Source of the DNA: an uncultured Chthonomonas sp.
GTDB lineage: Bacteria; Armatimonadota; Chthonomonadetes; Chthonomonadales; Chthonomonadaceae
Direction of reading: 5' to 3'
Assembly (NCBI GenBank): GCA_903859705.1
Contig: CAIONQ010000066.1
Location: 1-49,664, forward strand
DNA length: 49,664 nucleotides
Made by a program: the position numbers and the translations under genes. The stretch's first letter is position 1, and the number at the start of each line of letters is the position of its first letter. Shown here piece by piece: positions 13,314 through 24,433 of this stretch. Under the pieces are notes generated by a model. It was not told the origin of the DNA and did not search any database. It worked only from the letters and a program-made list of their open reading frames with translations.

Positions 13314-14735
13314 ATGGCGGGTGGTTCATTTGTCGGGCTGGATATCGGCTCCAATCAGATCAAAGTGGCGGAACTTCGCCGCTCTGGCAGCCAGTTGCAG
13401 GTTGTCGCGATGGGTGTTGCTCCAACACCTCTCGAGGCCTATGACAAAAGCGAGATTGTCGATCCCCAACTGCTGGGAACAGCGGTAAAGAACCTGCTCA
13501 AGCAGGCAGGGATTACCTCCAGGGATGTTGTAAGCTCCGTTTCTGGTCAGTCTGCGGTGGTAGTTCGAGTAATCGAAGTACCGCAGATGAATCAGTCTGA
13601 GCTTGCAGAAACCATGAAGTGGGAAGTTGAGCGGCACGTGCCGTTTGCAACCAGTGAAATGGTTATTGACTGGACCCCGATCGACAGGCCGGAAGGCTAC
13701 GCTGAGGGACAGAATATGGAAGTTCTGCTTGCGGTAGCGCAGCAGGACATGATCGACCGGCATGTAGAAATGCTGGCCGCGGCAGGGCTTAAAGCGAAAT
13801 CTATCGATGTTGAGCCGCTTGCTGTGTGCCGCACTCTGCTGGATATCGATCCCAATCAGTCTCAGCCAGGCCACACGGTCACTATTCTGAATATCGGTGC
13901 ATCTTACACCGAAGTTGGTATCTACAGGGATAAGCTTCTGGCTTTCCCACGTACGCTACCGGTTGCAGGTGAAAACCTGACCCGTGCTATTGCGCAGGGC
14001 CTTGGTGTTGATCTGGCAACTGCTGAGAATTACAAGCGCGAATATGGCGAAGTTATTCTGGATCAGTTCGGTGGAGCCGGTGCCCAGCCTGATTTTGGCG
14101 GTGGCGGCGGATTCAACTCCCCTGGCTTCCAGGACTTTTCTGCTCCGGCTGGCAACCCCTTCGGTGCGCCCCCGGATCCATTTGCAGCTCCTGCACCGGG
14201 CGGGCCAATGCCCTTCGAGTTCTCAACTCCCGGTGATGCGATTCCTCAGCCAACCGGTGCTCCGCTAGATGTGTATGAGGCTCCCGCAGCTCCGGCCCCT
14301 GCTCATGCTGAGAACCTGCCCGCTACACCATCCAGCGCTGATCCGGTTCGCGATGCGCTACGAATTCAGGTGTTTTCTGCTATGGCTCCTGTGATTGCTG
14401 AAATCGCACAGGAGGTTCGCCGCTCACTCGATTACTATCGTGGCCGAGCCGGTGATGCGCATATCAATGAGATTCTGCTGGTTGGCGGAACGGCCAAGTT
14501 GAAGAATCTCGACAAGTTCCTGGAAATGGAACTTGGTATACCGACACGCGTGGCGGATGCTCTGCACAATGTGCAGATCACAGCCAAGTCGGTTTCTGCA
14601 CAGTATGCTCAGGATCTTGCTCCGGTGTTCCCGATCAGTGTTGGTCTCGGCCTGCGCGATCTGGTAACAGATCCCAACGCTTCCAAGGGGAAGAGCAAAG
14701 CCAAGGCCAAGACCAAGAGCGCCAAGAAGAAGTAG
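13314..14735 (+). CDS. pilM: PilM-like pilus assembly ATPase-fold protein
   Basis: 473 residues; typical PilM is about 350. The actin-like fold opens with FVGLDIGSNQIKVAEL and continues with MKWEVERHVPF, ILNIGASYTEVGIY and the C-terminal EILLVGGTAKLKNLDKFL, all characteristic of type IV pilus PilM (cytoplasmic partner of PilN). Between about residues 248 and 342 a Gly/Pro/Phe/Ala-rich insertion interrupts the fold just after YKREYGEV, accounting for the extra length. Its C-terminus is Lys/Ala-rich. The ATG at 13314 has GAGG upstream; an earlier in-frame start lies in the leader and is unlikely. It is the first gene of the operon. Confidence 0.88.
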   Translation: MAGGSFVGLDIGSNQIKVAELRRSGSQLQVVAMGVAPTPLEAYDKSEIVDPQLLGTAVKNLLKQAGITSRDVVSSVSGQSAVVVRVIEVPQMNQSELAETMKWEVERHVPFATSEMVIDWTPIDRPEGYAEGQNMEVLLAVAQQDMIDRHVEMLAAAGLKAKSIDVEPLAVCRTLLDIDPNQSQPGHTVTILNIGASYTEVGIYRDKLLAFPRTLPVAGENLTRAIAQGLGVDLATAENYKREYGEVILDQFGGAGAQPDFGGGGGFNSPGFQDFSAPAGNPFGAPPDPFAAPAPGGPMPFEFSTPGDAIPQPTGAPLDVYEAPAAPAPAHAENLPATPSSADPVRDALRIQVFSAMAPVIAEIAQEVRRSLDYYRGRAGDAHINEILLVGGTAKLKNLDKFLEMELGIPTRVADALHNVQITAKSVSAQYAQDLAPVFPISVGLGLRDLVTDPNASKGKSKAKAKTKSAKKK

Positions 14736-14830
14736 TTCCGAACAGTACTCGCCCTGAACAACGGCGTGCTTAGCACATCATAACTCGGGGCGAGGATTGC
14801 TCAGACCTTCCAGGTGGGAGATAAAATACG

Positions 14831-15751
14831 ATGCTGCGCATCAATCTGCTTCCAGACTACATAAACGACAAGAACAAGGTTAGAAACCTCTCCTTTGTGT
14901 GGGGTGGCGTTGTGCTTGCTGCAGTTCTGGGTCTGATGTTTGTAAACTCGCAAGCCATAGCGGCTCGCGATGCGGCCCTGGCCGATCAGCAGGCAAAAGA
15001 AGCCCTGAAAAAAGATACGGACGACTTCAAGTCTAAAACCACAGCCGAGAAAACGAAGCGCGCGGAAATCGAAACCAAGCAGGTTTTCGTTAAGGGCGCT
15101 AACATTTACAATAACGGTTGGGCAGACACCTATGAGCTCGTTCGCGATATCACACCAACCGATACCTCGATCATCCTGAAGTCCGTTTTCCTGGATAAAG
15201 ATCGCAAAACGGTAAACGTTTCTGGGTTTGGTATCAGTGAGCAAGCCATAGTCAAATGGTGGAAGTACCTGCGCGATAATGCCGGGGTTGTAGATCACGT
15301 GAACTTCGCGATGATCCCTCACGCATATCAGCCAGAGTCTCCCGCAGTTGTTTCCGGTGGCGGAATGCCAGGCGGAGCTGCCCCGGGCACAGGTGGCGGC
15401 ATGGCCACTGCGGGCTTCAGTTCCAAAATGGCCAACATGGGTAGCCTGCTGGCAAGCGGCGGTATGCCCGGTGCTGGCCCAACAGGCGGCGGCGGAGCTG
15501 GTGCATCCGATACAGTTGGCAAGGCAGAGCTTCGCGGCAAAAATGGATTTAACTTTACCGCTCAGATAGTTCTTAAAACGGCACATGCTGGCGGCATACC
15601 TACCCCGGTATGGCCCGGTGGTGGCGGTGCACCTGCATCTACCGCCTTCGCAGGATTCGGCGGCGGTGGTGGTGGCGGCAGCACGGCACCAACCGGCGGC
15701 GGCGGTGGGGCTGCATCTGGTAAGTTCAACAAGAAGGATAAGGGAGAGTAG
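14831..15751 (+). CDS. pilN: PilN-like inner-membrane pilus assembly protein
   Basis: 306 residues. It starts with MLRINLLPDYINDKNKVR, the classic PilN N-terminus that binds PilM, followed by a membrane helix (about 22-40), a charged coiled-coil segment (50-85) and a ferredoxin-like domain with ITPTDTSIILKSVF. From about residue 175 it becomes Gly/Met/Ala/Thr-rich, with a second such stretch at the C-terminus ending KFNKKDKGE. GGGAG lies upstream of the ATG. It lies 95 bases behind pilM and 2 bases ahead of pilO. Confidence 0.87.
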   Translation: MLRINLLPDYINDKNKVRNLSFVWGGVVLAAVLGLMFVNSQAIAARDAALADQQAKEALKKDTDDFKSKTTAEKTKRAEIETKQVFVKGANIYNNGWADTYELVRDITPTDTSIILKSVFLDKDRKTVNVSGFGISEQAIVKWWKYLRDNAGVVDHVNFAMIPHAYQPESPAVVSGGGMPGGAAPGTGGGMATAGFSSKMANMGSLLASGGMPGAGPTGGGGAGASDTVGKAELRGKNGFNFTAQIVLKTAHAGGIPTPVWPGGGGAPASTAFAGFGGGGGGGSTAPTGGGGGAASGKFNKKDKGE

Positions 15752-15753
15752 AA

Positions 15754-16560
15754 GTGAAGAAAACATCTCGCCTTACAGCGCTCCATATTCACATTATTGG
15801 AGCCACTGCGCTTCTTCTCGCAAGCCTGATCATCTTCTTCGCGATGATAAAGCCGCGCAACCAGGAAACTGAAACAGCCAAGGCTGCTGGAGCTGCTGCT
15901 GAGCAGGCCGGTGGTTCTGAAACCGCAAAAGCCGCAGCCAAGAAGGACCTTGAGAAATCCAAGCTGGATACCATACAGATCACCAAAGACTGGATGGTTT
16001 ACTCCCGCAAGTATATGCCCACTCTTAAGTGGAGCAAAGACAACATTGACCAGTACTATACGTCCAATGCTGTTAATGATCTGCCTGCACAGTGGGGCCG
16101 CTGGGTAACTGCATGGTACGATGCGCAGCGCACCTCTGGTGTGTCTCGCAGCCTTGGGCAGGTTTTCCCTGTACCATCCCTTGCTTCTGATCCTAACGGC
16201 ATTGCAAACCTAACCTACATCACGCTTCCTTCTGCGAAGGAACCGTGGAAGGTACAGGTAACCTGCAAAAGTTTTGACCAGGCCATGGCACATCTGCGAA
16301 AATTCAATGGAATGCTTCAGCATGGTGTACCCGTCGTAACTAATGTAACCCTTTCAGGCCAGAGCCCCGAGCTACTTATGAGCTACGATCTGGCACTGTA
16401 CATCATCCCCAACACGCCTCCCCCGGCAGTGGATCCCCGCATCGGCGGCGGAGCAGCTCCGGCCGGCGGCGGGTTCGGTGGTGGCTTCGGTGGTGGCATG
16501 GGTGGCCCAATGTCTGGCGGACCTCCTGTTAGCGGCGGTATGTTGGGTAAGGGCAAGTAG
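15754..16560 (+). CDS. pilO: PilO-like inner-membrane pilus assembly protein
   Basis: 268 residues, start GTG with AGGGAGAG six bases upstream. One membrane helix (about 10-31) is followed by an Ala/Lys-rich coiled coil and a PilO-like periplasmic domain (KVQVTCKSFDQAMAHLRKFN). The last ~40 residues are Gly-rich (GGGFGGGFGGGMGG). In type IV pili and type II secretion the PilN/PilO pair forms the periplasmic inner-membrane complex. The position directly after pilN supports the call more than sequence detail does. Confidence 0.82.
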   Translation: MKKTSRLTALHIHIIGATALLLASLIIFFAMIKPRNQETETAKAAGAAAEQAGGSETAKAAAKKDLEKSKLDTIQITKDWMVYSRKYMPTLKWSKDNIDQYYTSNAVNDLPAQWGRWVTAWYDAQRTSGVSRSLGQVFPVPSLASDPNGIANLTYITLPSAKEPWKVQVTCKSFDQAMAHLRKFNGMLQHGVPVVTNVTLSGQSPELLMSYDLALYIIPNTPPPAVDPRIGGGAAPAGGGFGGGFGGGMGGPMSGGPPVSGGMLGKGK

Positions 16561-16601
16561 GGCGGTAGCCTTTTAAGTCCTTCTGGGAGGAAACCTCGGG
16601 A

Positions 16602-17327
16602 ATGAACCGAATCAAGGTCTCAAACAAAGTTATAACGGCTGCTTTCGGCCTGAACCTGGCTATTGGCTTAACAATTGCCGGCGCACAGGTAGCTAAGAAG
16701 CCGCCGTTGGGCCAGGCGAAGGGTCCGCTTGCTAGCGGTGCAGACAAAGCTGCACCTGCTGCAGCACCCGCTCCTGTGGTGGCTCATCACAAGGGGAAAG
16801 ATCCGTTCTACATCCCGTGGACGGTTCCGCCGCCTCCGCCCTATGTATTTGATAGCATCCTACCTGTTCGTGTAGCAGATGAAGAGATTGAAGCACCCCC
16901 GAAGAATCCGGTAACCGTTCGGGAAGAGCCGACTCTCCGTGTCTCCGGCATTATGACTGGAGATGGCGTATTCGCTATTCTTGAGCAGAGCGGCGGCAAA
17001 GTAGATATCGTAAAGCCTGGTAGCTCCGTTGACGTTGGAAACGGACGAACATATATTGTAACCTCCATCAAGGGTGACACCGTCATACTGGAGAGCAAAG
17101 ATGGCCTGGTAACGTATCAGCAGACAGTTCCACTTAGCGATGCCCCGGTAGGCACTTCAAGTGCTTCCTTCGGGGGTGCACCCACTGGCCCCGGCCGTGG
17201 TGCAACCGGCCCCGGATCGTTCGGTGGTGGCCGAATCGGTGGTGGTAAGAAGGGTGGCGGAATGATGACACCCGGTGGTGGTCTTACCCCTGGCGGCGGC
17301 GGCGGTGGTTTCCAGAGCGGAAAGTAA
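16602..17327 (+). CDS. PilP/GspC-like protein with Gly-rich tail
   Basis: 241 residues. A hydrophobic N-terminal segment is followed by an Ala/Pro-rich linker containing GKDPFYIPWTVPPPPP, the kind of proline hinge found in PilP and GspC. A small beta domain (LRVSGIMTGDGVFAILEQ, KPGSSVDVGNGRTYIVTSI, VILESKDGLVTY) matches the GspC homology/PilP fold. The final ~55 residues are Gly-rich. It likely bridges PilN/PilO to the secretin. GGGAGG lies upstream of the ATG, though rather far. The operon position agrees. Confidence 0.75.
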   Translation: MNRIKVSNKVITAAFGLNLAIGLTIAGAQVAKKPPLGQAKGPLASGADKAAPAAAPAPVVAHHKGKDPFYIPWTVPPPPPYVFDSILPVRVADEEIEAPPKNPVTVREEPTLRVSGIMTGDGVFAILEQSGGKVDIVKPGSSVDVGNGRTYIVTSIKGDTVILESKDGLVTYQQTVPLSDAPVGTSSASFGGAPTGPGRGATGPGSFGGGRIGGGKKGGGMMTPGGGLTPGGGGGGFQSGK

Positions 17328-17595
17328 CTGCAGCTAACTGCTGAAGCAATTCGAAACGGTGGATGCTTGTAAGGATTTAGATCAGAATCTGGACTCAAGT
17401 ATCCGCTTGCAGGAGTTCTCGGGTACAATCCCGAAACTTGCAGGGTTAATCGTGCTGAAGAACTGTAAAGGCCATGTGCTTTTACAGACTTATACAAAGT
17501 CACCGACTGAGCGTGGATTACTGATCGACACGCGTATACTGCGTGGCGAAGCTCGAATGTGTGATACGTTTCGCTACCTCGGAGGAATTGGAACC
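17328..17595. other. 268-base gap inside the pilus operon
   Basis: There is a small hairpin TCGGG/CCCGA around 17418-17433 and a TATACT at 17535-17540 without a good -35. The frame of the next gene stays open through the gap, but the sequence looks non-coding. It could hold a secondary promoter for the STN and secretin genes. Confidence 0.35.
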
Positions 17596-18360
17596 ATGTT
17601 GTCAAGGTATGGTAAGGTGGGTCTGGCAGTGATCTCACTGACGGTCCTCGGCGTTGCTACATCGCCAGTTCGCGCCCATGCCCAGGATTCTGGCACGGAA
17701 GCAAATGGCGGAGCAAACGATCCGACCAACAAGAAGATCGACCTCGACCTCGAGTCGACCAACCTGTATTACGGTCTGAAGCTTCTGTTCTCCCAGGTCA
17801 AGGCGAACTTCACGATCGATGAATCTCTTAAGAGCCTCAGCGTAACTGCGCACCTCACCCAGGTGCCTTTCCGTACTGCCCTTGAGACCCTGCTGAAATC
17901 AACCAGCACCCCCCTCACCTATAAGGTTGAGAGTGGCATCTACAGCGTTGTACCCAAAGTGGAAGACGCTGCACCAACCGATGAGGGCAAGAAGGATGAT
18001 ACAACTCCTACTGGCTCCGGCGGCTACAAGTACGGCATGATCCGACCCGTTAACCTCAGTGCAACCGATATTGTCCAGGCGTTCGGCGGTAACGTAGTCA
18101 ACATTGGCTACACTTCCTTCGGCGGCGGCGGACTCGGCGGCGGCATGGGTGGTGGTATGGGCGGCGGTATGGGTGGCGGCATGGGCGGCATGGGCGGCGG
18201 CATGGGTGGTATGGGCGGCGGCATGGGCGGCGGCATGGGTGGTGGTATGGGCGGCGGCATGGGAGGCGGCATGGGAGGCGGTAGCCGTGGTGGCGGCGGC
18301 GGCTTCGGTGGCGGCGGCGGTGGTTTTGGCGGCGGCGGCGGTGGCCGCGGCGGCTTCTAA
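17596..18360 (+). CDS. Short STN-domain protein with Met-Gly repeat tail
   Basis: 254 residues. A signal peptide (VGLAVISLTVLGVATSPVRAHAQ) is followed by one secretin/TonB N-terminal short domain (KIDLDLESTNLYYGLKLLFS, TVAHLTQVPF-like region, LKSTSTPLTYKVESG). A second segment resembles the start of a secretin N1 domain (YGMIRPVNLSATDIVQAFGG). From about residue 175 to the end the protein is almost only Gly and Met, then Gly and Phe (GGGMGGGM repeats). The secretin pore domain is absent. The GGAGG at 17581-17585 fixes the ATG at 17596. It may be an accessory secretin partner. Confidence 0.75.
   Translation: MLSRYGKVGLAVISLTVLGVATSPVRAHAQDSGTEANGGANDPTNKKIDLDLESTNLYYGLKLLFSQVKANFTIDESLKSLSVTAHLTQVPFRTALETLLKSTSTPLTYKVESGIYSVVPKVEDAAPTDEGKKDDTTPTGSGGYKYGMIRPVNLSATDIVQAFGGNVVNIGYTSFGGGGLGGGMGGGMGGGMGGGMGGMGGGMGGMGGGMGGGMGGGMGGGMGGGMGGGSRGGGGGFGGGGGGFGGGGGGRGGF
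18118..18357 (+). repeat. Tandem GGC/ATG glycine-methionine coding repeat
   Basis: About 240 bases of short imperfect repeats, unit roughly GGCGGCATGGGT, encoding Gly-Gly-Met-Gly. Slippage and copy-number variation are likely here. Confidence 0.85.
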
Positions 18361-18389
18361 TTTGCCCGCTCCTAACATCTGATTTGTGG

Positions 18390-18416
18390 AGGGCATGCAG
18401 GATTCAGGCATGCCCT
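18390..18416 (+). terminator. Hairpin between the STN gene and the secretin gene
   Basis: AGGGCATGC (18390-18398), a nine-base loop, then GCATGCCCT (18408-18416). No U-run follows, so it more likely stabilises the upstream mRNA end or causes partial termination. Confidence 0.45.
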
Positions 18417-18591
18417 TCCATAACTGACGTTTAACACAAAAATGAAGCGGCTCGCATATCGGTTTGCTTCAAACCAAATTGGTATCAGATATGCGTGCAA
18501 TCGGCACATGTATTTCAGGATACATGCCGACTTATCCACGATTTAACACGCCCGTTGGCACTACTGAGGCGTGACAAGGGGGGACATCTGT

Positions 18592-20391
18592 ATGGGATTC
18601 CACAGGCAGAAGGGACGCGCTACCGGGCTGCTGTTCGCCAGCGTGCTGAGCGCAGCGCTCCTCAATGGGGCAACCCTTCGCTCCTTCGCGGATGACGACA
18701 TCCCGGCGGGGCAGAAGGCTGCTCAGGTACGAAACAATCCGCTGCTCGATGTTGAACTCAACGACACCTCGCTCCCGGCCGCTATCGCAATTATTCGACA
18801 GCAGCTCAAGTGCAGCTTCGTGTTCCACAACGATAAATCGGAATACGGCAAGGTCACACTTTCTGTTAAGGGTAAGCCTGTCGGTGATGTGCTGAAGCTG
18901 ATTGCTGATTCTGCTGGTGCAGATATCTGGCAGGAAGATGGCGTCTATCACATCGGCCCGAAGGGTTCTCACACAGTCGCTCAGCCAACCGTTGAGCAGG
19001 TGCAGACCTCCGTTGCTCCTCTGGCTCCTGTTTCAACTAAGATCGGTCAGATCCGACTCTACTTTGCAAACGCACAGGATGTCATTGATCAGCTTTCTGG
19101 TAAGGCCGCAACAAGTGTTAGCGTCAATACCCAGGGTTTAATCTCTGGTCTTGCTGGTGCAACCACTCATGTGGATCCCCCGAAGACACTTTCGCTCGTT
19201 CCGGGATATGCAGGCGAGTTTGTTAATCCGGGCGCAGCTTCCACGGCAGCTCCGATCGGCACTAAGGGTACCCCTCAGGACGGAGGCGCTCACCGCGCTG
19301 ATGGTCCAGACTTCAACCGCGGTGGCCAGGCTGGCCTTGGCGGTGGTGGTATGGGCGGCGGCGGCTTCGGCCAGCCCGGCGGTGGTATGGGCGGCGGCGG
19401 CAACGGTGGTTTTGGTGGTGGTCAGGGCGGCGCAGGTAATGGCGGCGTAGGTGGCCAGGGCCAGAATGGCGGTACCGCTCGTGGTCTGTTGCCTGCAGGT
19501 ATTGAGCCGCAGGACCTTACGGCCCTCTCAAACAACAATGTAATCATTGTTCGTTACAAAGATGACGCCGAGGGCGAAGCTGCTTTCCGTGAACTGCAGA
19601 CCCGCATCAGACTGCTTGATATCAAGCCGAAACAGATTCAGGTTCGCGCTCAGTTTGTTACTGTTACGCAGAACGATGCCGATCAGTTCGGTATTAACTG
19701 GCAGTTCCAGAAGGTCAACCTGCTCGGCGTGCTCAACGCTGGATATGCCCCAACGGGTCAGGCGGTCCTTCAGTACGCAACAGGCAACCTGCAGACGCAG
19801 TTGAACTTCGCGCTGACAACCGGTCGCGGTAAAGTGGTTGCTTCCCCGATGGCAACAACGTTTAATAACGTTCCTGCTATCTTCACAAACACCACTGAGT
19901 ACTACTCGTTTATCCCTCAGACCTTCATTGGCCCTGGCGGTGCAGCGCAGACAACGTACTATCCGCAGCAGATCCCGGCCACTTCGGTGCTGGCAATCAC
20001 GCCGCGTATTAACGGAGACAACACGATTACCCTCAATGGTATCTTGATGTTCACCGACCTTAGCGGTACTGCAAAGAGCCCGGATGGTACGGATTACCCG
20101 ATCCTTGTACAGCAGCTCATCCCGTCCGTAACCCGCATCATCCGCAATGGTGATACGATGGTACTGGCTGGCCTGATCCGCAAGCAGGATAACAACGCAG
20201 TGCAGAAGGTTCCGCTTCTGGGCGATCTTCCGCTCATTGGCAGCCTGTTCCGATCTCGCAGCGTTAACACCAACGATTCTGAACTCCTGGTGTTCATCAC
20301 GGCAACGATCCTTCCGGATCCGATCCCCGGCGGCGCTGTTAGTGTAGGCAACGGTCTTACTGCTCCAGTAAGCGGTCCTTCCGGTAACTGA
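18592..20391 (+). CDS. Secretin of PilQ/GspD family
   Basis: 599 residues. A signal sequence (GLLFASVLSAALLNGATLRSFA) precedes an STN domain (LDVELNDTSLPAAIAIIRQQ) and a second N-domain. A Gly-rich linker spans about residues 244-297. The secretin domain follows, with QIQVRAQFVTVTQNDADQFG, GKVVASPMATTFNNVPAIF, ATSVLAITPRINGDNTI and the family signature VPLLGDLPLIGSLFR then LLVFITATIL. It forms the outer-membrane pore for pilus or secretion traffic. The ATG at 18592 is preceded by AGGGGGG at eight or nine bases. It is the last gene of the operon before a strong terminator. PilQ versus GspD is not settled by sequence alone. Confidence 0.88.
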   Translation: MGFHRQKGRATGLLFASVLSAALLNGATLRSFADDDIPAGQKAAQVRNNPLLDVELNDTSLPAAIAIIRQQLKCSFVFHNDKSEYGKVTLSVKGKPVGDVLKLIADSAGADIWQEDGVYHIGPKGSHTVAQPTVEQVQTSVAPLAPVSTKIGQIRLYFANAQDVIDQLSGKAATSVSVNTQGLISGLAGATTHVDPPKTLSLVPGYAGEFVNPGAASTAAPIGTKGTPQDGGAHRADGPDFNRGGQAGLGGGGMGGGGFGQPGGGMGGGGNGGFGGGQGGAGNGGVGGQGQNGGTARGLLPAGIEPQDLTALSNNNVIIVRYKDDAEGEAAFRELQTRIRLLDIKPKQIQVRAQFVTVTQNDADQFGINWQFQKVNLLGVLNAGYAPTGQAVLQYATGNLQTQLNFALTTGRGKVVASPMATTFNNVPAIFTNTTEYYSFIPQTFIGPGGAAQTTYYPQQIPATSVLAITPRINGDNTITLNGILMFTDLSGTAKSPDGTDYPILVQQLIPSVTRIIRNGDTMVLAGLIRKQDNNAVQKVPLLGDLPLIGSLFRSRSVNTNDSELLVFITATILPDPIPGGAVSVGNGLTAPVSGPSGN

Positions 20392-20481: not shown

Positions 20482-22203
20482 ATGACAGTTGAGACTTACT
20501 ACACTTTTGAGCATGATTCTGTTCTGACGGCTCTGCGGGAATCCCGCGCTAATCAGCAGGTTCGTGGTACTGGCCTCGTGTTAACCGGAATAATGGGTTC
20601 CGGAAAATCGGTTACAGGGGCCCTGGCTGCGGCTAGTCTTGGGCTACCCTTCGTGGATACCGATGCCGTAATTGAAGCGGAGGCAGGGTGTTCAATATCT
20701 TCGATTTTCTCGGAGCAGGGCGAGGCCGCATTTCGGGCACTAGAGTCCGATGTTATATATCGGGTTACGCAGGGTGCTCCGGCAGTTGTTGCAACTGGCG
20801 GAGGGGCAGCTCTTTCTGTGGAAAACAGAAGGAATATGCGTCGATTTGGGCCGGTATTGTGGCTACATGCCAATAGAAGAGCGTTACAACAAAGATTGTC
20901 TGATTGCGGTACTCGCCCGTTACTTGCTGGCGATATTAGCCCCGCAGATCGTGCTTTGCAGTTGGAGCTGGTAAGATCGCCAGCATATACTGCAGCTGCA
21001 GATGGTGCTGTCGATACAAGCAGAAAGTCACCGGAGAATGCAGCTAAGGCGGTTTGCGAGATATACAATCGCCTTATAGGCCCGCAGGAACATAAACCCA
21101 CTTCGGGGATAGCCCATTTGCACATGGAGTTAGGCGATCGAAGTTACCCTCTATGGCTGGGTGCTGGAATTCTCGGCTCTATTGCAGGGGAGATTGTTAC
21201 GCGTTGTTCTCCCAATAGAGTTTGCATCTTAACTCACCCGGGGCTGGCGGCGCAATATGCCGCTCCAATTGCGAGTCAGTTAGAAGCACTCGGTATTCCT
21301 ACTCAAATTTCATGCATTCCGCCCGGCGAACGATTTAAGAATTTAAACACCATAGCCCGCTTTTACTCTGCATTTGTTGAAGCAAAGCTCGATCGTAAGA
21401 GCCTGGTTATAGCTGTTGGAGGTGGAGTAATAGGAGACATGGCAGGATTTGCTGCCGCATCCTACTTGAGAGGCATTGCGTTTGTTCAGGTGCCCACAAC
21501 ACTGCTGGCACAGGTGGATAGCAGCATCGGCGGCAAAACAGGGGTGGATCTGCCCGAGGGTAAGAATCTGGTTGGTGCCTTCCATCAGCCAAAGGCTGTA
21601 ATTCTGGATACGGATACCCTGAAATCGTTGCCGTTGCGGGAACTCAGATCTGGTCTGGCAGAGGTGATCAAGTATGGTATAATCTCCGATAGCTCGTTTT
21701 TTTACCAGACACAAGACAACCTTCCGGCGATTCTGAAGCGTGAATCTGCGGCTCTTGAGAGGGCTATAGCCCGATCTTGTGAGATAAAGGGAGCTGTAGT
21801 ATCTGCGGATGAAACCGAGCAGGGACTACGAGCCATATTGAACTTCGGACATACCGTGGGCCATGCCCTGGAAACGGCAACCCGCTACAGGCGCTATCGG
21901 CACGGCGAAGCGATATCTATTGGTATGGTATCTGCCTGTCTGGTTGGTGAGGAGCTTGGCATTACCCCCGCCGAAGTTACCTCTCAGGTGGTTAGCTGCC
22001 TTAATGCTGCCGGGTTACCAACGGTATTCCCAGCAGATGTTAGCCTGGATGAGATTCACCGTGGCATGCTGCTCGATAAGAAAACTGTTTCCGGAAAGCT
22101 GAAGTTCGTGCTTGCAGAATCGGTTGGAACGGTAACCGTCGTTTCAGATATCGATGCTTCTGCAGTAACCTCAGCGCTCAACCGTCACCTTAACCTGGCG
22201 TAA
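20482..22203 (+). CDS. aroKB: Bifunctional shikimate kinase / 3-dehydroquinate synthase
   Basis: 573 residues forming a fusion of two shikimate-pathway enzymes. Residues ~29-200 are AroK: P-loop GIMGSGKS (36-43), FVDTDAVIE, TGGGAAL and RPLL. Residues ~205-573 are AroB: GGGVIGDMAGFAAASYLRG, VQVPTTLLAQVDSSIGGKTG, SGLAEVIKYGII and NFGHTVGHALE. Both active-site sets look intact. AroB makes 3-dehydroquinate and AroK phosphorylates shikimate three steps later, so the fusion joins non-consecutive steps. Such fusions are known, for example in Thermotoga. The ribosome-binding site is weak. It starts a long co-directional run. Confidence 0.95.
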   Translation: MTVETYYTFEHDSVLTALRESRANQQVRGTGLVLTGIMGSGKSVTGALAAASLGLPFVDTDAVIEAEAGCSISSIFSEQGEAAFRALESDVIYRVTQGAPAVVATGGGAALSVENRRNMRRFGPVLWLHANRRALQQRLSDCGTRPLLAGDISPADRALQLELVRSPAYTAAADGAVDTSRKSPENAAKAVCEIYNRLIGPQEHKPTSGIAHLHMELGDRSYPLWLGAGILGSIAGEIVTRCSPNRVCILTHPGLAAQYAAPIASQLEALGIPTQISCIPPGERFKNLNTIARFYSAFVEAKLDRKSLVIAVGGGVIGDMAGFAAASYLRGIAFVQVPTTLLAQVDSSIGGKTGVDLPEGKNLVGAFHQPKAVILDTDTLKSLPLRELRSGLAEVIKYGIISDSSFFYQTQDNLPAILKRESAALERAIARSCEIKGAVVSADETEQGLRAILNFGHTVGHALETATRYRRYRHGEAISIGMVSACLVGEELGITPAEVTSQVVSCLNAAGLPTVFPADVSLDEIHRGMLLDKKTVSGKLKFVLAESVGTVTVVSDIDASAVTSALNRHLNLA

Positions 22204-22555: not shown

Positions 22556-24433
22556 GTGATTAATCAGATCATAAGTCAGCGCTACGAAATACTTGAAAAA
22601 GCGGGGGATGGCCCCCTCTTCGTAACGTTTAAAGCGCGCGACACGGCTATGGACCGTATTGTTGCCGTAAAGATGCTGCAGCAGCCGTACCTGAGCGATG
22701 CACGGCTCCCGGATGCAATGCGGCTTGCTTTGGAAGAGACGGTGGTGTTAAACCACCCGGGTATTACCCGCTTTTATGAGTATCGAGACGAATCCGATAT
22801 TATCTACACCGTTTCGGAATTTGTGCGCGGTATCAATCTCAAAGAGCGCATTCGCAGGATTGCCCCCTTTACACTTTCGCTTGCAATCGATTTTGCCTGT
22901 GCAATAGCCGAAGCCCTGCAGTATGCACATACACTTGGTAAAGTACATGGAGATCTGCGGCCCCAAAATATCATAGTATCGCCAGAGGGTGTGCTAAAAA
23001 TTGCCTCGTTCGGCGTTCAAAAAGGTGCAACCGCATGCACGGCCGCACAGGAAGCTATTCTTGAGCTATCTGCGCCCTATCATGCTCCCGAGCTATCAAC
23101 AACGCAGCCTGGTTCAACCGCCGGCGATATCTATGCTCTTGGGGCAATCCTGTACGAAATGCTTACAGGGGCAACTCCTTACACAGGCCACACCGCCGAT
23201 GAGCAAAGCGAAGGGCATGCGTTTAATGCAATACCTTCTGCAAGAGTGCTAAACCCGGGAGTGCCGCGGCCCGTAGATGGTATTATCAGCCGTTGTTTGC
23301 AGAAGCGCCCGGAAGAAAGATACCGGAGCGCTGCCGAGCTGCTAAACGATCTGAAATCCGTGCGAGATGCTCTGCGTTTCGGTAAGCCTCTGTCGGGCCT
23401 GGCCTCAGAGCCCATTCCGGAGCCAGCTGCCGCACCAGTTCCATCACCTGTAAAAGCCATTGCTATTGAGGAGCCGGCCGATGCAGAAGTTGCGGAACGG
23501 AAGCATGAGAGGAACAAATTGAGACAGCAGGATGAACGCGTCTCGGTTTACATTAGGGTAGCCATTAGCACGGTAGGCATCATTATTCTGCTGTGTGGCA
23601 TATTTGTTTACGGTATATACCTTGCAAACTGGGTTGTGCCGCCCACAGCTACTGTGCCTGAATTTGTGGGCAAACCCATAGAAGATGTACGTAAAATTGC
23701 CGCAACTAACAAGTTCAGGCTTATGGAGCATGCCGAGTACACGGAAAAACCACGTGGAGTGGTTTATCAATCGGATCAAACGGCCGGCTCCCAACTTCGA
23801 GCTCAGCACATAATCAACGTTTGGTACAGCCGCGGCCCAGAGTACGTAAATGTACCCAACGTAGTAAATATTCCCAGAGAACAGGCAGAGCAGCAGCTTA
23901 AAGATGCAGGCCTCAAAGTAGGCCGCGTAACTCCCGAGTACAGTGATAAAGTGCCGGAAAACGTGGTTATGGCTCAGGATGTATCTTCCAAGAAACGCGT
24001 ATTCCACGATACTGCAGTTAGCCTTACTGTTTCCAATGGCCCTGATCCTGCCAACCCGGCAGCAACGCCGGATAGCGGCGGCACAACTCCTGGCGCACCG
24101 GATACTAATAATCCGGATGCTGGCGCGCAGCCAGGTGCCGATCCGCCTGGCTCGGATGGTGCTGATGCCCAGGATAAAGAAACGCATACATTCTCACGTA
24201 CTATTAGCATCAGCCGTGATGGCCGTGGCCGCAGGCAGGTGCGCGTAGAGTATAAAGATGCCCTTGGCGAGCACCCAGCCGTTATCGATGAGGGGCACGA
24301 AGAGGGCGATAAGATCCTGATTAAGTTTGACTATGTGGGCAAGGCAATCACCCTCACCATTCAATACGATGGTCAGAAAGTGTTTGATAAAACCTTCGAT
24401 CCACAAACTGTTCGAAAGCGCACCATCCAATGA
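22556..24433 (+). CDS. PASTA-domain Ser/Thr kinase-like protein, degenerate DFG
   Basis: 625 residues, GTG start with GGAG upstream. The kinase fold spans about residues 10-270, one membrane helix 334-357, two PASTA repeats about 363-427 and 430-496, then a Pro/Gly/Asp-rich linker and a novel C-terminal beta domain. The ATP-anchoring Lys39 (VAVKM) and HGDLRPQN with Asp133 are present. The glycine loop is poor (AGDGPLF), and the DFG metal-binding aspartate is replaced by serine (KIASFG, Ser151). This points to a pseudokinase or an unusual kinase. PASTA domains bind muropeptides, and murQ lies in the same run. It overlaps rpe by four bases. Confidence 0.87.
   Translation: MINQIISQRYEILEKAGDGPLFVTFKARDTAMDRIVAVKMLQQPYLSDARLPDAMRLALEETVVLNHPGITRFYEYRDESDIIYTVSEFVRGINLKERIRRIAPFTLSLAIDFACAIAEALQYAHTLGKVHGDLRPQNIIVSPEGVLKIASFGVQKGATACTAAQEAILELSAPYHAPELSTTQPGSTAGDIYALGAILYEMLTGATPYTGHTADEQSEGHAFNAIPSARVLNPGVPRPVDGIISRCLQKRPEERYRSAAELLNDLKSVRDALRFGKPLSGLASEPIPEPAAAPVPSPVKAIAIEEPADAEVAERKHERNKLRQQDERVSVYIRVAISTVGIIILLCGIFVYGIYLANWVVPPTATVPEFVGKPIEDVRKIAATNKFRLMEHAEYTEKPRGVVYQSDQTAGSQLRAQHIINVWYSRGPEYVNVPNVVNIPREQAEQQLKDAGLKVGRVTPEYSDKVPENVVMAQDVSSKKRVFHDTAVSLTVSNGPDPANPAATPDSGGTTPGAPDTNNPDAGAQPGADPPGSDGADAQDKETHTFSRTISISRDGRGRRQVRVEYKDALGEHPAVIDEGHEEGDKILIKFDYVGKAITLTIQYDGQKVFDKTFDPQTVRKRTIQ

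Follow-up and report, generated by a model that had tools for sequence, protein, structure and literature searches.

Glycine-rich tails on PilN, PilO and PilP of the type IV pilus operon resemble one another within genomes across the Armatimonadota

The DNA analyzed here is a stretch of 49,664 nucleotides (contig CAIONQ010000066.1) from an uncultured Chthonomonas sp., a member of the phylum Armatimonadota; this whole stretch is called the window. At positions 13314-20391 it contains six co-directional genes, pilM-pilN-pilO-pilP-STN-pilQ, which are followed by a gene for a fused shikimate kinase-dehydroquinate synthase. The six-gene cluster is the type IV pilus alignment operon of an Armatimonadota host, with an extra gene, STN. 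We found that PilN, PilO and PilP bear glycine-rich tails whose sequences match within individual genomes, and that the operon with its Gly-rich tails occurs phylum-wide in Armatimonadota. This suggests that the tails share a task not described before, possibly that of holding the pilus machine together. A first-pass annotation of the window had reported Gly-rich segments in all six proteins. It had explained them by common selection, perhaps for interaction between tails or for flexible spacing of a thick envelope.

To assess the matching of tails, we compared the similarity of tails from one genome with that of permuted partners, using one genome per family. The permutation z was 9.6 for PilN-PilO, 7.3 for PilO-PilP and 4.5 for PilN-PilP, and only -0.2 and 1.1 when PilN and PilO, respectively, were paired with STN. 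The test was repeated once with an independent set (22-23 families), and z was 8.3 for PilN-PilO and 4.1 and 5.2 for the other two pairs, listed in the same order. The STN pairs of the independent set gave z of 1.2-2.2, so that a weak matching signal for STN is possible. When partners were shuffled within families, the observed mean was reached in 0 of 2000 shuffles for each of the three pairs. Residue order adds to composition, as the PilN-PilO similarity exceeded that of shuffled sequences with z above 4 in 21 of 57 genomes. Similarity of the last 12 residues, anchored at the C-terminus, was significant overall, and for PilN-PilO within families it was not (1494/5000); we did not use it as main evidence. 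A genome-wide compositional bias as the cause of the matching was ruled out, because little if any matching is seen with STN and PilQ, which belong to the same operon, and because no more than 2 of the 542 sampled open reading frames (ORFs) are Gly-rich.

The Gly-rich segments stand out clearly from their surroundings. The maximum Gly fraction per 30 residues is 0.53 in PilN, 0.57 in PilO, 0.60 in PilP, 0.80 in STN and 0.73 in PilQ, and it does not exceed 0.33 in any other ORF of at least 100 amino acids (aa) in the window. The background ORFs were taken from 696 kb sampled across the window's genome and one relative, and counted as Gly-rich when 30 residues contained at least 50% Gly. At this background rate, the chance of finding five Gly-rich proteins out of six in one operon is about 1e-11. 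The operon genes, their segments and the fused gene that follows all lie on the plus strand. PilN has two segments. An internal loop (15350-15538, aa ~174-236), recognized by composition and alignment, lies between the domain's final two strands and has an AlphaFold pLDDT mostly of 39-58; the C-terminal tail (15578-15748, aa ~250-306) begins after the last strand. The C-terminal tails of PilO (Gly/Met/Pro-rich, 16438-16557, aa ~229-268) and PilP (17169-17324, aa ~190-241) were delimited by composition and orthologue alignment. The STN tail (18112-18357), rich in Gly, Met and Phe and ending in RGGF, was found by composition and repeat finding. In PilQ, a loop (19276-19482) separates the two halves of the N1 domain, as seen from composition and alignment to the 6W6M profile. 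The positions given in the first-pass annotation were correct, that of STN (from residue ~175) provided that the gene starts at the ATG 17596. Its proposed check of disorder also agreed: in the AlphaFold model of PilN, pLDDT is ~80-90 in the core and ~35-49 in the tail, and the tail of the STN model is likewise of low confidence. Thus, the tails are predicted to be disordered. Signal peptides and membrane helices predict that all five Gly-rich segments are periplasmic.

The tails recur in orthologous operons throughout the phylum. Among complete genes of a first set of 53 genomes from about 24 families, 30 residues with at least 40% Gly were present in 41/47 PilN, 37/46 PilO, 32/44 PilP, 32/33 STN and 29/31 PilQ proteins, and in 1/51 PilM proteins. 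The second set, comprising 34 further genomes, none of them used in the first, was less extreme (PilN 22/34, PilO 18/33, PilP 17/31, STN 25/28). Counted by family, PilN was Gly-rich in 17 of 20 families of the first set and 17 of 23 of the second, the two family lists overlapping. Most of these genomes are metagenome-assembled, and some ten of their contigs break off within the STN tail; therefore, repeat lengths are uncertain. Tails also occur in single-contig genomes (G003, G087, G104, G107, G111, G134, G139) and in genomes of few contigs (G172, G195), although in some of them they are weak. Homologues from Acinetobacter and E. coli, the only controls outside Armatimonadota, had no Gly-rich tails (30-residue Gly maximum at most 0.23).

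We then considered how the match could have arisen. In three genomes, the DNA of the PilN and PilO tails is nearly identical: 60 nt at 100% (L082, on a 1.7-Mb contig), 111 nt at 94% (L067) and 91 nt at 95% (L069). Judged from these sequences, the two tails have recently exchanged DNA in three genomes, and copying between the genes has happened more than once, to which extent the two tails can replace each other. In three other genomes (G001, G014, G038) the amino-acid match is strong (z at least 10), but identical residues share identical codons no more often than expected. Therefore, the exchange is old or the match is convergent, and it is kept at the protein level. Close orthologue pairs among G022, G023 and G026 have a ratio of nonsynonymous to synonymous substitution rates (dN/dS) of 0.04-0.22 in the tails of PilN, PilO, PilP and STN, with synonymous differences of ~0.3-0.6 and few gaps. 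In more distant pairs the dN of repeat alignments may be biased downward, and we therefore relied on dN/dS for these close pairs only. By this sequence measure, the tails are conserved and under purifying selection. At the same time, they diverge faster than the cores in most close orthologue pairs (e.g., G033/G060 and G002/G012). No direct repeats of at least 24 nt were found in the PilN-PilO-PilP region of the window. Taken together, the tails in orthologous operons, the low dN/dS and the match within a genome support the earlier suggestion of a shared, selected feature. The two findings that the first-pass annotation had named as refuting, close relatives without the tails and slippage restricted to the window's genome, are both contradicted.

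In Neisseria and Pseudomonas, PilP binds PilN/PilO and the N0 domain of PilQ, and it has been proposed to keep the PilQ ring together (PMC3441751). In the assembled ring, with about a dozen copies of each protein, matched tails would be present at a high local concentration beneath the PilP-PilQ contact. Weak multivalent like-with-like contacts could then keep PilN, PilO and PilP joined to one another and up against the base of the secretin, and selection for contact between tails would maintain their likeness. We favor tail-tail interaction, which was one part of the original suggestion. That the matched tails strap the ring by like-with-like contacts is a tentative reading which may well be correct, although we would not yet bet on it. 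A stronger version, in which the periplasmic tails form a lineage-specific, like-recognises-like disordered mesh that drifts between species and is kept alike within each by exchange and selection, is possible but somewhat doubtful. Several observations weigh against strapping by contact between tails. The PilN and PilO tails of the window itself do not stand out for their similarity to each other (rank 26 of 40); the matching is seen at the level of the phylum. In several families the Gly-rich tails of PilO or PilP are weak or missing (e.g., G049, G116), so that the feature is not essential everywhere, and in one family (G200, L239) the PilO tail is nearly purely acidic, EDEEEEEDEEEDEDEDEEDEEEEEDD, and not Gly-rich. 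Isolated Gly/Pro tails are often inert. Once exchanged, tails could also remain matched through separate selection on each of them, without any contact, and an identical pattern would be expected if a single third partner bound all three tails.

The last possibility can be stated as follows: each tail separately tethers the machine to one envelope component (peptidoglycan, the outer membrane or a protein not listed here), and the tails converge without touching one another. The match among the three tails fits this equally, and so do their ends. PilN and PilO terminate in D or E in 35% and 33% of cases, against a background of 10%. Some tips common to the two proteins are not simple repeats: QIKLRLGGG/KIRLRMGGG in G111 (L240) and LKGRDA on both PilN and PilO in G177 (L235), which suggests that in some lineages the end of the tail carries a short binding motif. 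However, we found no candidate ligand, and the match lies mostly in the low-complexity body rather than in the tip alone, in agreement with the non-significant anchored similarity of PilN and PilO within families. We consider a common ligand unlikely, but deserving attention. Less likely still is that repetitive Gly/Met DNA lets neighboring genes swap tails, any suitable composition being tolerated and likeness being a by-product. The three recent PilN-PilO exchanges and the faster divergence of tails than cores speak for such recombination without a matching function. Against it stand the low tail dN/dS, the amino-acid match that persists despite codon randomization, and the STN and PilQ segments of this operon, which are no less repetitive but hardly match, if they match at all.

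The idea of flexible lengths allowing the machine to span a thick envelope was not supported. The PilQ loop and the internal loop of PilN are true linkers between folded parts, but PilO, PilP, STN and the second PilN segment have free C-termini and join no two folded parts. Moreover, we found no sign of an unusually thick periplasm, and a spacer needs length, not matched sequence. This explanation appears very improbable. Functionless slippage confined to the window's genome is the least credible of all. A 12-nt array detected by Tandem Repeats Finder (TRF) in the STN tail fits it, but the Gly-rich PilN of most families in both sets, the low dN/dS and the lack of long direct repeats in the PilN-PilO-PilP region contradict it. 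A slippage-only origin is thus ruled out by the phylum-wide conservation together with the low dN/dS.

The segments do not form one common feature, as had been proposed, but two classes. The tails of PilN, PilO and PilP are of the Gly/Pro/Ala/Met type, whereas the STN tail and the PilQ loop are of the Gly/Met/aromatic type. On average, PilN and PilO tails contain 29-30% Gly, 15% Pro, 12-14% Ala and 8-9% Met, and STN tails contain 57% Gly, 10% Phe+Tyr, 9% Met and 1% Pro. The STN protein (17596-18360; 6W6M PilQ profile, 5.2e-15) consists of a signal peptide, a secretin N0 domain and the first half of N1, after which Gly/Met/Phe repeats run up to the C-terminus. The ATG 17596 is its likely start, with a good ribosome site and the signal peptide, and in the AlphaFold model, made from 17614-18360, residues 41-114 adopt the N0 fold. 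The loop of PilQ and the beginning of the STN tail occupy an equivalent position, after the first helix of N1. STN therefore looks like the front part of a secretin severed at the N1 loop. Of 71 STN orthologues, 64 end in F, Y, W or R (34 of 38 clades), with a background of 16%. An orphan STN paralogue, with the same DPSNQKIDLDLESTNLYY start and a Gly/Met tail ending in GGGRGGF, is encoded away from any pilus operon (L116:8088-8789, minus strand of contig C124 of the window's genome, G000). The STN repeats seem to break short-read assemblies: at L067, L076, L077, L081, L086, L092, L097, L104 and L107 the metagenome contig ends in or near the Gly tail.

PilM does not belong to either class. It has a real insert at the place indicated by the first-pass annotation (14049-14348, aa ~246-345, by composition), but this is a Pro/Ala/Phe/acidic segment with little Gly. 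Its 30-residue Gly maximum of 0.33 and the PilM median of 0.23 across 51 complete orthologues rule it out as a member of the Gly-tail set. Averaged over 10 orthologues, the insert contains 14% Gly, 16% Pro, 14% Ala, 15% Asp+Glu and 9% Phe. So five of the six reported Gly-rich proteins stand, and a feature extending into the cytoplasmic part of the machine does not.

The window belongs to a genome of 6.24 Mb in 179 contigs. PilM (13314-14735, 473 aa), actin-like and cytoplasmic, scored 234.5 bits with TIGR01175 (cut-off 133) and 5.9e-51 with PF11104. The window's PilN, PilO and PilP gave no meaningful Pfam match, and PilN and PilP were identified through orthologues or profiles. PilN (14831-15751, 306 aa) has the features expected of the family: an N-terminal INLLP motif, one membrane/coiled helix and a ferredoxin-like periplasmic domain. 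It matched the 3JC8 PilN profile (3.5e-17), and its AlphaFold model resembles the PulL/GspL periplasmic domain (Foldseek E 0.017, probability 1.00). Among 21 orthologues, INL-P is invariant in all and PF05137 matches 8. PilO (15754-16560, 268 aa) has the expected place, size and single N-terminal membrane helix; the Pfam families PilO and T2SSM each matched one orthologue weakly (E ~0.05), and the assignment rests on position in the operon, orthologue alignment and these weak matches. PilP (16602-17327, 241 aa), a PilP/GspC-HR-like protein, matched the profiles of PilP (4AV2, 4.3e-5; 2IVW, 1e-4) and GspC (3OSS, 7.2e-4), and 2 of 17 orthologues matched T2SSC. We looked for a lipid-anchor cysteine in the N-terminal segment of the window's PilP and found none; a signal peptide or helix probably serves as the anchor. 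PilQ (18592-20391) comprises N0, N1 and the secretin domain (PF00263, 1.8e-31; 6W6M, 1.9e-24), and its 131 bits with TIGR02515 are under the cut-off of 284. The fused shikimate kinase-dehydroquinate synthase (20482-22203), assigned by domain matches, corresponds to the aroK-aroB neighborhood that follows pilMNOPQ or hofMNOPQ elsewhere. The two enzymes are encoded separately in some relatives, and in others chorismate synthase precedes. A Ser/Thr kinase with PASTA-like repeats, recognized by eye, lies after the pilus-aro cluster at 22556-24433, as in several relatives. Elsewhere in the same genome, two loci for the retraction ATPase PilT exceeded the TIGR01420 cut-off. Contig C16 (L115) carries a third set of the PilM type, which is without Gly-rich segments. 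We also counted 68 prepilin-type N-methylation motifs in this genome. In the related Fimbriimonas ginsengisoli, 65 such motifs were reported and fimbriae were described (PMC4072686).

The Fimbriimonas genome paper (PMC4072686) lists PilB, C, D, Q, M and PilT and no others; pilN, pilP and, with less certainty, pilO have now been identified in Armatimonadota. Type IV pilus machines have been well studied in few phyla, and the PilN-PilO-PilP homologues that we checked there are without such tails. In Armatimonadota, disordered tails of tens of residues have been added to the pilus parts and kept matched across three genes. They provide a natural test case for the ability of matched disordered tails to hold a membrane machine together. 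Their exchange and joint drift make the evolution of disordered regions in bacteria measurable. If true, a like-recognises-like tail mesh would represent a new assembly principle for machines that span the envelope.

We searched the literature for Gly-rich or disordered tails of PilN, PilO or PilP and found nothing relevant. Phase separation has been studied with low-complexity Gly-rich tails such as that of plant GRP2 (PMC13261584), which share a disordered Gly-rich composition with those of the pilus proteins. In contrast, the tails described here are on periplasmic, membrane-anchored ring subunits and are matched in sequence across three neighboring genes, and what we have for them is composition, predicted disorder and matching only. 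Gly-rich loops of this kind are present in the N domains of other secretins. Both the loop of PilQ and the beginning of the STN tail are of this type, but STN is missing the second half of N1, so that the loop has turned into a free tail whose aromatic/Arg end is conserved. The operon also resembles type II secretion systems (T2SS: GspL/GspM/GspC/GspD), since the best Foldseek matches of PilN are GspL periplasmic domains and the PilP profile matches GspC. GspL is one fused protein, however, whereas in every relative with a complete locus PilM and PilN are encoded by two genes, and the operon scores as PilM. The window's genome has a distinct T2SS-like locus on contig C21 (L113:4625-8679, minus strand), and its GspC-like protein and secretin contain Gly-rich segments (0.73, 0.60). 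The closest likeness is to the type IVa pilus alignment complex of Pseudomonas, Neisseria, Myxococcus and Thermus, with the actin-like fold of PilM, the INLLP motif and ferredoxin-like domain of PilN, the beta-domain of PilP, the PilQ secretin and PilT in the genome. It differs in that PilO is barely recognisable by Pfam and that a Pfam-type domain search found no AMIN domain in PilQ. The gene order pilMNOPQ-aroK-aroB is common to E. coli hofMNOPQ and Acinetobacter pilMNOPQ, and here one extra gene, STN, stands between pilP and pilQ. The PilN homologues of Acinetobacter and E. coli have 213 and 179 aa and no Gly-rich tails, in contrast to the PilN of the window, which reaches 306 aa with its tail.

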